Assembly: GCF_000001735.4 (NCBI RefSeq)
Contig: NC_003070.9
Span: forward strand, 4,030,001-4,094,000
Direction: 5' to 3'
DNA: 64,000 nt
Origin: Arabidopsis thaliana
Lineage: Eukaryota; Streptophyta; Magnoliopsida; Brassicales; Brassicaceae
Positions 40,160 to 64,000 of the stretch are shown here, piece after piece. The first letter of the stretch is position 1, and every line of letters starts with the position of its first letter. The translations under genes and the position numbers were made by a program. A model generated the notes under the pieces. That model was given only the letters and a program-made list of their open reading frames with translations. It did not search any database and was not told the origin of the DNA.

Positions 40160-42394
40160 ATGTTGTTCCCTCCTCTTCGTTCCCTCTTTCTCTTCACCCT
40201 CTTGCTCTCCTCCGTTTGTTTCTTACAAATCAAAGCAGACCACGACGATGAAAGCGACTTGGGCAGTGATATCAAAGTAGACAAACGTCTCAAGTTCGAG
40301 AACCCGAAGCTACGTCAAGCCTACATTGCTCTTCAATCATGGAAAAAAGCAATCTTTTCTGATCCTTTCAACTTCACAGCTAATTGGAATGGTTCAGATG
40401 TTTGCTCCTACAATGGAATCTATTGTGCTCCTTCTCCTTCATACCCGAAAACCCGAGTCGTTGCTGGCATTGACCTCAACCACGCTGACATGGCCGGTTA
40501 CTTGGCTTCCGAGCTAGGTCTCCTCTCTGATCTCGCTCTGTTCCACATTAACTCAAACCGTTTCTGCGGTGAAGTCCCTCTCACGTTTAACCGCATGAAG
40601 CTTCTCTACGAGCTTGATCTTAGCAACAACCGATTCGTCGGTAAGTTCCCTAAGGTTGTCCTCTCTTTGCCTTCCCTTAAATTCTTGGATCTCCGCTACA
40701 ACGAGTTTGAAGGCAAGATCCCATCAAAGCTCTTCGATAGAGAGCTTGACGCTATATTCTTGAACCATAACCGGTTCCGGTTCGGGATTCCCAAAAACAT
40801 GGGAAATTCCCCTGTTTCTGCTCTGGTTCTTGCGGACAACAATCTCGGAGGATGCATACCGGGAAGTATCGGTCAAATGGGGAAAACACTCAACGAGCTT
40901 ATCCTCTCCAACGACAACTTAACCGGTTGTTTACCTCCTCAGATCGGAAACCTCAAGAAAGTGACGGTTTTCGACATCACTTCAAACCGTCTACAAGGTC
41001 CGTTACCATCTAGCGTTGGTAACATGAAGAGCCTAGAAGAGCTTCACGTGGCTAACAATGCCTTCACAGGAGTTATTCCTCCAAGTATCTGCCAGCTTTC
41101 TAACCTTGAGAACTTTACTTACTCTTCCAACTACTTCTCCGGTCGTCCTCCTATATGCGCAGCTAGTTTGTTAGCCGACATTGTGGTGAACGGTACCATG
41201 AACTGCATCACCGGTTTGGCTCGTCAAAGATCGGATAAACAGTGCTCATCTTTGCTTGCTCGCCCTGTGGATTGCAGTAAGTTTGGATGTTACAACATCT
41301 TCTCTCCACCACCACCGACGTTTAAGATGTCACCTGAAGTCCGGACACTTCCTCCACCGATTTACGTGTACTCATCGCCTCCTCCACCACCGTCGTCAAA
41401 GATGTCCCCTACCGTCAGAGCATACTCTCCCCCACCACCACCTTCGTCCAAGATGTCACCCTCTGTCAGAGCATATTCACCACCACCGCCTCCTTATTCC
41501 AAGATGTCACCTAGCGTTCGAGCTTACCCTCCTCCACCACCACCATCACCATCTCCCCCACCGCCTTACGTATACTCATCTCCTCCACCGCCCTATGTGT
41601 ACTCATCTCCTCCTCCACCGCCGTATGTGTATTCATCCCCTCCTCCACCGCCTTACGTATACTCATCTCCTCCACCGCCTTACGTGTACTCATCTCCACC
41701 CCCGCCTTACGTATACTCATCTCCACCTCCGCCTCCTCCAAGTCCACCACCACCGTGTCCTGAATCATCTCCACCACCGCCTGTTGTATACTACGCACCC
41801 GTGACACAAAGCCCTCCACCACCATCACCGGTATACTATCCACCAGTAACACAAAGCCCTCCACCACCATCGCCAGTATACTACCCACCGGTGACAAACA
41901 GTCCACCACCACCATCACCGGTATACTATCCCCCAGTAACATACAGTCCACCACCACCATCACCAGTTTACTATCCCCAAGTAACACCAAGTCCTCCACC
42001 ACCATCGCCGCTATACTATCCCCCAGTAACACCAAGTCCACCACCACCATCACCAGTTTACTATCCCCCAGTAACACCAAGTCCTCCACCACCATCACCA
42101 GTTTACTATCCCCCAGTAACACCAAGTCCTCCACCACCATCACCAGTTTACTATCCATCGGAAACACAAAGTCCTCCACCACCTACTGAGTACTACTATT
42201 CACCAAGCCAGTCTCCGCCACCAACAAAAGCATGTAAAGAAGGCCATCCACCACAAGCAACACCAAGTTACGAACCACCTCCAGAATATTCATACTCATC
42301 ATCACCACCACCACCATCTCCTACGTCCTACTTTCCACCGATGCCAAGCGTCTCATATGATGCATCTCCTCCTCCTCCTCCGTCTTACTACTAG
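40160..42394 (+). CDS. LRX1: Leucine-rich repeat extensin LRX1
   Basis: A single exon of 744 codons. It has a signal peptide (about residues 1-26), a capping region (ALQSWKKAIFS...NWNGSDVCSYNGIYC), about ten leucine-rich repeats (residues 90-340, such as LYELDLSNNRFVGKFP and LEELHVANNAFTGVIP), a Cys-rich hinge (CSSLLARPVDCSKFGC) and from about 375 an extensin domain of SPPPP blocks with YVYSS and PVYYPPVT units. Pro residues in SPPPP become hydroxylated and arabinosylated, and Tyr motifs allow cross-linking in the wall. LRX proteins bind RALF peptides through the LRR part and link wall state to FERONIA-type receptors; LRX1 acts in root hair shape. I match it to At1g12040. The repeats are nearly identical at DNA level from 41800 to 42180, so copy number may vary between accessions. 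Confidence 0.97.
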   Translation: MLFPPLRSLFLFTLLLSSVCFLQIKADHDDESDLGSDIKVDKRLKFENPKLRQAYIALQSWKKAIFSDPFNFTANWNGSDVCSYNGIYCAPSPSYPKTRVVAGIDLNHADMAGYLASELGLLSDLALFHINSNRFCGEVPLTFNRMKLLYELDLSNNRFVGKFPKVVLSLPSLKFLDLRYNEFEGKIPSKLFDRELDAIFLNHNRFRFGIPKNMGNSPVSALVLADNNLGGCIPGSIGQMGKTLNELILSNDNLTGCLPPQIGNLKKVTVFDITSNRLQGPLPSSVGNMKSLEELHVANNAFTGVIPPSICQLSNLENFTYSSNYFSGRPPICAASLLADIVVNGTMNCITGLARQRSDKQCSSLLARPVDCSKFGCYNIFSPPPPTFKMSPEVRTLPPPIYVYSSPPPPPSSKMSPTVRAYSPPPPPSSKMSPSVRAYSPPPPPYSKMSPSVRAYPPPPPPSPSPPPPYVYSSPPPPYVYSSPPPPPYVYSSPPPPPYVYSSPPPPYVYSSPPPPYVYSSPPPPPPSPPPPCPESSPPPPVVYYAPVTQSPPPPSPVYYPPVTQSPPPPSPVYYPPVTNSPPPPSPVYYPPVTYSPPPPSPVYYPQVTPSPPPPSPLYYPPVTPSPPPPSPVYYPPVTPSPPPPSPVYYPPVTPSPPPPSPVYYPSETQSPPPPTEYYYSPSQSPPPTKACKEGHPPQATPSYEPPPEYSYSSSPPPPSPTSYFPPMPSVSYDASPPPPPSYY

Positions 42395-60175: not shown

Positions 60176-60589
60176 TTAGCATTGGAAGCCAGGAGGAAGT
60201 TGTTTGCTGCAAACATTAAGGAGTAGACTTAAAGATATTGGGAGGTTCAAGTTGATTCCAAGAATGTTAGCCTTAAGAGCGGTGCAGAGACAAACGGCTG
60301 CCTCAACATCAGCGAGTCCTTGGATGAGGCTGCAGCATGGCTCGACCGGTGGCTTGCCAAGGGTCAAGTCCAGGAGGCCGTTGAGCACATTAGCGCAGAC
60401 ACCGAGCTTGAGGGTGTCTTTAGGGCACTTGCTCGAGCCAGAGCTAGGGCTTGGGGTTGGTTTAGGAGTTGGCTTTGGCTTGGGAGAGGGGCAACCTCCG
60501 CCGCACGGAGTACAGCTACCACAGGCGGAGATTGTTGTGAAAAAGAGAAGATTGAGAGCCAAGAAAAGAGCTATGGAACTTGAAGCCAT
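60176..60589 (-). CDS. ELP: Hybrid proline-rich protein with 8-Cys (LTP-like) domain, extensin-like
   Basis: A single exon of 137 aa. A signal peptide ([22 protein letters not shown], cleaved near residue 22) leads into a short Cys/Gly segment ([12 protein letters not shown]), a proline-rich stretch ([15 protein letters not shown]) and a C-terminal eight-cysteine motif domain: C-x9-C ... CC ... C-x-C ... C ... C. The hydrophobic spacing fits the HyPRP group related to non-specific lipid transfer proteins. Such proteins are secreted to the cell wall or plasma membrane face; relatives (AIR1, EARLI1) act in lateral root growth, cold response and systemic priming. I match it to At1g12090. Intact, intronless; TATA-like DNA (GTTTTATAGTGG) lies near 60672-60682 on its upstream side. 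Confidence 0.92.
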
Positions 60590-63256
<2,667 letters not shown>

Positions 63257-63405
63257 AATAACTCCCTCTGTTCCTTTTTGTTTGATTGTTTATAAAAAAA
63301 ATTTGTTTCTAAAAGATTGATTTTTTAAGTTTTCTATGTAATATTTATTGGTTAGTATTGGTGAATTGTAATTTTCAAGAAAAATAGTTAATTCTCATTG
63401 GTTTA
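63257..63405. mobile_element. MITE-like fragment with CTCCCTCTGTTCC terminus
   Basis: TAACTCCCTCTGTTCCTTTT at 63258 is the kind of terminal sequence found on several plant MITEs (CTCCCTCYGTTCC). The matching inverted end was not found before the neighbouring element begins, so this is probably a truncated copy or one end only. Confidence 0.35.
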
Positions 63406-63410
63406 GAGTA

Positions 63411-64000
63411 GGGATGTCAAAATGGGTAACCCAACTCAACTCATAATCAAATGAGTTTAAGGTTAAATGAGTTATGGGTTGACCCAACTCATTTTGTTAA
63501 ATAGGTTGGGTCTACCTATAACTCATTTAATATGGGTTAACCCATTTAAATAATAATTTAATTAATTATTATTATAAAAATAATAAATTAATAATGATTC
63601 ATTATCATCAAACTTAGGATATTTACGGATTCCACTTTTTACGGATTTACGTTTTTGACGAGAAAATCATGGGTTTACGTTTTTGGCGGGAAAATCTCGG
63701 GTTTACGTTTTTGGCGGAAAAATCACGGATTTACGTTTTTGGCGGGAAAATCACGGATTTACGTTTTTGGCGGGAAAATCACGGTTTTTTGTTTTTTGGC
63801 GGGAAAATTACGAGTTAACGTTTTTGGCGGGAAAATTACGAATTTACGTTTTTGGCGGGAAAATCACGGGTTTACGTTTTTGGCGGGAAAATCACAGGAT
63901 TTACATTTTTGGCGGGAAAATCTTGGGTTTACGTTTTTGGCGAGAAAATCTTGGGTTTACGTTTTTTGCAGGAAAATCACGGGTTTACTTTTTTGGCGGG
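63411..64000. mobile_element. Non-autonomous hAT-like element (left part; continues beyond the window)
   Basis: TAGGGATGTCAAAATGGGT at 63411 is a typical hAT terminal inverted repeat start. It is followed by subterminal repeats of GGGTAACCCAACTC / GGGTTGACCCAACTCATTT in both orientations (63425-63550), as hAT transposases require. From about 63650 the interior is a 28-bp tandem array. No transposase is visible. The right end and the 8-bp target duplication lie outside the window, so family membership is inferred from the left end only. Confidence 0.55.
63645..64000. repeat. 28-bp minisatellite, about 12.5 units, most with an E2F site
   Basis: Units of 28-29 bp share TTTACGTTTTTGGCGGGAAA followed by ATCACGGG or close variants. 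I count 12 full units and one cut by the window end. About nine contain GGCGGGAAA, the reverse complement of TTTCCCGCC, the canonical plant E2F-DP binding site; the others differ by one or two bases (GACGAGAAA, GGCGGAAAA, GGCGAGAAA, GCAGGAAAA). Confidence 0.9.

Follow-up and report, generated by a model that had tools for sequence, protein, structure and literature searches.

Amplification of E2F sites by Brassicaceae transposons, those of Arabidopsis included, was described by Henaff et al. (2014, Plant J) and is taken here from passages of four reviews (PMC12595863, PMC4110626, PMC7956360, PMC13317346), which name hAT, PIF/Harbinger, MULE and Helitron elements as the carriers. According to these passages, 73% (PMC7956360) or up to 85% (PMC4110626) of the consensus E2F sites of Arabidopsis lie in transposons, transposon-borne sites are bound in vivo by E2Fa (PMC4110626), and RBR is present at Arabidopsis transposons with E2F consensus sites (PMC7956360, section 3.3). 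Titration or promoter roles have been proposed in the reviews for such sites. The E2F consensus is quoted as TTTSSCGSS or TYTCCCGCC in the consulted part of PMC5464667, and tandem TTTTCCCGCC served as an E2F bait in yeast according to that of PMC1402289. In our literature searches, no E2F or RBR ChIP set on transposons was found, and the E2Fc ChIP-seq paper PMC12915602 had no match for "transpos" in the portion of text examined. No description of E2F arrays in transposons was found either, the primary text of Henaff et al. (2014) lying outside this search.

The locus analyzed here lies at the right edge of a 64,000-nucleotide stretch of the Arabidopsis thaliana genome (C1:4030001-4094000, hereafter the window). 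It likely represents one copy of a non-autonomous hAT family with an array of predicted E2F-DP binding sites that would have grown, spread by transposition and then decayed mostly neutrally. The locus is ordinary and its kind of feature is already known: it is one case of the published amplification of E2F sites by transposons, to which a first-pass annotation of the window had rightly pointed (PMC12595863, PMC4110626, PMC7956360, as far as their passages on the subject go).

A hAT element carrying an array of E2F-type sites

A period-28 tandem array was identified by Tandem Repeats Finder at window positions 63641-64000 (12.8 copies, 87% matches, score 513). Followed past the window edge, where window position 64046 would equal C1:4094046, the full array measures 395 bp and parses into the units given in Table 1. 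Intact GGCGGGAAA is present in nine of these 14 units, eight of them wholly inside the window and the ninth straddling its edge, in agreement with the first-pass annotation, which had counted at least 12 units of 28 bp and about nine cores. The identification of the core word with the E2F consensus also holds, the word fitting both forms quoted in PMC5464667, and the use of TTTTCCCGCC as a yeast bait further supports the core word as an E2F site. In the window, GGCGGGAAA has eight matches, each of them on the + strand and within the array, for an expectation of 0.09 (100 dinucleotide shuffles, largest 1).

Genome-wide word counts covered 119,662,809 bp in 7 contigs. TTTGGCGGGAAA occurs 1,561 times, its reversed word 3 times and the rearranged word TTTGGGCGGAAA 18 times, while pairs of GGCGGGAAA on one strand, 14-24 bp apart, give 545 matches and the reversed pattern 0. 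Two other E2F-like words are only mildly enriched, TTTGGCGCCAAA with 58 places versus 13 reversed and TTTGGCGCGAAA with 31 versus 9. A chance origin of the E2F words of the window is ruled out by the shuffle expectation together with the genome-wide control words.

The array is carried by an element of 969 bp (C1:4093409-4094377) that starts with TAGGGATGTCAAAATGGGT and ends with ACCCATTTTGACACCCCTA; 243 bp separate the left end of the element from the array, and 331 bp separate the array from the right end. No frame for a transposase was found in this element, the only stop-to-stop frames of at least 50 aa being those that run through the array. The duplication of GTTTAGAG on both sides (right copy at C1:4094378-4094385, past the window end), the terminal inverted repeats shared with other copies and the existence of relatives coding for hAT transposase domains all bear out the earlier reading of a non-autonomous hAT element. 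The insertion took place in a MITE of about 258 bp once the hAT insert is subtracted, whose own TA duplication is not clear. On a larger scale, the element lies between two divergent frames of the LTP family (Hydrophob_seed), both transcribed away from it.

Table 1. Features at and around the array (window positions unless prefixed by C1)
Feature	Position	Strand	Remarks
Array of 28-bp units, E2F-type core TTTGGCGGGAAA	63652..64000, on to C1:4094046	+	14 units, 9 cores intact; start at 63641 in Tandem Repeats Finder
Non-autonomous hAT element	63409..64000, on to C1:4094377	+	Inverted ends, target duplication
Left terminal inverted repeat TAGGGATGTCAAAATGGGT	63409..63427	+	
Target-site duplication GTTTAGAG, 8 bp, left copy	63401..63408	.	
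MITE, presumably Stowaway-like, recipient of the hAT insertion	63261..64000, on to C1:4094496	.	Imperfect inverted ends ACTCCCTCTGTTCC.../ACTTCCTCCGTTCA...
LTP-family frame	60176-60589	-	
LTP-family frame	start C1:4095498	+	

Two other repeats were observed in the window. A perfect microsatellite, (TAT)56, occupies the 169 bp at 61012-61180, with the coding start of the LTP-family frame on the - strand (60176-60589) about 0.4 kb away. Adjoining arrays of 27-, 45- and 51-bp repeats rich in proline codons are present at 41384-42183 and probably represent an extensin-like coding region.

Copies of the family and relatives encoding a transposase

Forty copies of the hAT family of the window copy (family A) were fetched, 40 of 184 having been scored in one genome search and 40 of 97 in another. 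This second scoring, of 40 of the 97 candidates, gave 14 matches outside the fetched copies, one of which (C1:8277118, in locus L053) was later read. The end word of the family has 127 occurrences genome-wide with at most one mismatch, and family A is larger than the 40 copies fetched. Both terminal inverted repeats are present in 37 of the 40; one end was not found in L015, L032 and L045, which were left out of the end and arm counts. Among the 37 two-ended copies, the 8-bp target duplication is perfect in 24; 10 copies have a single mismatch in it, 1 has two, and 2 have five or six. The count of units and sites over copies that had been suggested for the element gives 13-33 units per fetched copy and 768 in all, TTTGGCGGGAAA being kept in 386 of them (388/773 in an ungapped tally). 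The right arms differ by 5.4% on average (666 pairs, 37 copies), which, at a substitution rate of 7e-9 per site per year, points to an age on the order of 4 million years; given the faster decay of methylated C, the real age may be lower. A literature search for the names SIMPLEHAT/ATHATN together with E2F returned nothing relevant.

At one further place (G000, C2:2162303-2162664), two family A end words lie just 362 bp apart, probably marking a copy without the array.

Two loci with the same ends as family A, L049 (C4) and L050 (C5), code for hAT transposase domains. In L049, three distinct frames encode a zf-BED domain, a hAT-like RNase-H domain and a hAT dimerisation domain, and L050 codes for part of an RNase-H-like domain. 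With the window copy, the match of their arms is about 75% on the left and 92-93% over 284 bp on the right. Both also contain array units, three in L049 and two in L050, located 3' of the transposase frames. The window family is probably related by deletion to transposase-bearing hAT elements of this type, whose two or three units, of 28 bp and with an E2F site, lie 3' of the transposase frames and before the terminal repeat. As these relatives hold just two or three units, the array probably expanded within the non-autonomous line. The anatomy of the copies suggests that this line underwent minisatellite growth to 13-33 units, followed by dispersal through transposition.

Other transposon families with the same core

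Three other families were found through the core word, from a sample of the other clusters. Family B (L051, L052, L061-L064) is a second hAT family with hAT-like ends TAGAGATGTTAA..., a unit near TTTTTGGCGGGAAAATGTTGAATTGCG and, in L063, the 8-bp duplication GATTCAAG. Family C (right half of L053, L056-L060, and the variants L054 and L055, omitted from the unit counts for their variant spacers) is PIF/Harbinger-like, with ends near GGCCCTGTTCGTTT and a unit near TTTTGGCGGGAAAACATGATTTTGCGG; duplications of TAA or TTA are present in L053 and L056, the two loci with both ends read. Families B and C both harbor arrays whose units, about 27 bp long, share the core of family A. Finally, family D (L065-L067) is unclassified and AT-rich, and carries E2F-type words in irregular clusters towards its two ends, with site orientation mirrored between the ends except for one site in L067; no clean inverted repeat was found at the ends of these three loci.

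Some loci have peculiarities of their own. The palindrome TTTGGCGCCAAA is present in L065 and L067. The array of L054 has a period of about 81 bp with core words alternating in orientation between GGCGGGAAA and TTTCCCGC, unlike the arrays with their cores on one strand. In L053, a family A hAT element (102-1057) and a PIF/Harbinger-like element (1191-2656) lie about 130 bp apart with opposed E2F arrays.

The consensus spacers of families A, B and C, of 12-13 bp only, align no better than shuffles (A-B P 0.34, A-C 0.13, B-C 0.30; 5,000 shuffles, uncorrected), and the same procedure gave 0.12 for A-C2 and 0.035 for the variant pair A-C3. Outside the arrays, the arms of families B and C share two or three matches of 26-30 bp (E about 5e-4), and the arms of the window copy (L009) had no match at E 1e-3 in the family B loci tested. 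The recurrence of the core in unlike arrays suggests that transposons gained E2F sites, or passed them among one another, more than once. A common origin of the A, B and C arrays may nevertheless be considered, because their periods are nearly equal and they share a T-rich RCG beside a T run.

It is conceivable, if rather improbable, that E2F arrays were selected in several families at the level of the transposon, since E2F/RBR binding would couple them to dividing or S-phase cells, the individual copies decaying afterwards. Two hAT families and one PIF/Harbinger-like family indeed have this core in their arrays, a fourth family has it in both end regions, and the spacers mostly align no better than shuffles. 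However, the units of the transposase-bearing relatives lie 3' of the transposase and not before it, the families were found through the core itself, the spacers compared are short, the nearly equal periods and shared T-rich RCG leave room for a single origin, and the A-C3 comparison gave an uncorrected P of 0.035. Put as a tentative proposal, at least three unrelated cut-and-paste families of one genome would have acquired 27-28 bp arrays on TTTGGCGGGAAA as a convergent trait, with E2F/RBR binding aiding movement or persistence in dividing or S-phase cells and the copies decaying neutrally. If convergence explains why the core recurs with unlike spacers, transposons would have been selected for E2F binding, which would then not be a by-product of amplification; the part worth following is this single core, shared by several transposon families whose arrays are otherwise unlike.

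The array could also be a transposase-binding or structural minisatellite, its match to E2F being incidental. Subterminal repeats to which the element's own transposase binds are common in hAT elements, and units are also present in the transposase-bearing relatives. Yet the array lies well inside the element, at the distances from the two ends given above, and the core is also found in families with different ends. Considering moreover the E2Fa binding reported for transposon-borne sites in the consulted part of PMC4110626, we regard such an incidental match as quite unlikely.

Decay of the core and of the spacer

The first-pass annotation had taken a conserved core against drifting flanks as a hint that the core is kept. 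Nearest copies were picked by two flanking units only, and the middle units then compared; gapped units over the limit, pairs above the flank threshold and middle units differing at more than 8 sites were dropped, and the spacer groups omit columns G25 (family B) and G24 (family C). In family A, the difference between nearest copies is 0.170 for the core CGGG and 0.170 for the spacer CGGG (CI of the difference -0.032 to +0.029, 370 pairs); an earlier comparison, restricted to units without gaps, gave 0.176 versus 0.163 (322 pairs). This equality over the 40 copies speaks against the supposed sign of constraint. Along the 28 unit columns, A/T columns have consensus identities of 0.889-0.999, and it is the C/G columns that decay, in the core CGGG (columns 8-11: 0.879, 0.884, 0.914, 0.791) as in the spacer CGGG (columns 19-22: 0.825, 0.913, 0.880, 0.772). 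The drift of the flanks mostly consists of this decay together with common unit variants at single columns, for example 17, 18 and 22.

The suggested comparison of the core with the rest of the unit has a second side, as the pooled G/C columns of family A change modestly less, by 3-5 points, in the core (0.139) than in the spacer (0.168 when column 17 is left out, 0.188 when it is included; zero lies outside the CIs). CGGG stands intact in 463/768 cores versus 395/768 spacers (bootstrap difference 3.6-13.8%), and CpG is intact in 601 units in the core versus 586 and 551 in the spacer. Pooled G/C change in family C is about 6 points lower in the core (0.122 versus 0.186), and in family B it gave no clear difference between core and spacer; standing G/C retention is 0.839 in the core versus 0.717 in the spacer for family B, and 0.894 versus 0.787 for family C. 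The copies thus appear to decay mostly neutrally after insertion, by loss of C and G, and a weak or older constraint on the core may exist, because pooled G/C, standing CGGG and the retention in families B and C favor the core.

Least probable of all is a host function, by which the array would regulate neighboring genes or shift replication timing and its core be kept for such use: the divergent LTP-family coding starts are about 2.8 kb and 1.1 kb away, and polymorphic TE-borne E2F sites near Arabidopsis genes are reported in the relevant passage of PMC12595863, but matched core and spacer diverge equally among copies (a family-wide neutrality compatible with function of one copy), and 5 of the 14 units of the window array have no intact core.

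Comparison with known systems

On the reading that we favor, of a non-autonomous hAT copy with a transposed and mostly neutrally decaying array, the sites of family A are probably bindable by E2F-DP, by analogy with the transposon-borne sites of the reviews, and their likeliest effect would be to enlarge the pool of E2F/RBR-binding DNA. Family A resembles the RBR-occupied transposons with E2F motifs of PMC7956360 (section cited above) in its E2F consensus sites. Similarly to the sites of Henaff et al. (2014), as the reviews present them, those described here are E2F-consensus words in Arabidopsis hAT and PIF/Harbinger elements; the review passages on that work describe neither tandem 27-28 bp arrays with spacers specific to each family nor a matched decay test. 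Finally, family A is comparable to Retand, according to the consulted part of PMC12477314, in that an array grew within a non-autonomous element and was dispersed with it; Retand is a Gypsy retrotransposon, whereas family A is a DNA transposon whose repeated unit carries a transcription-factor site.
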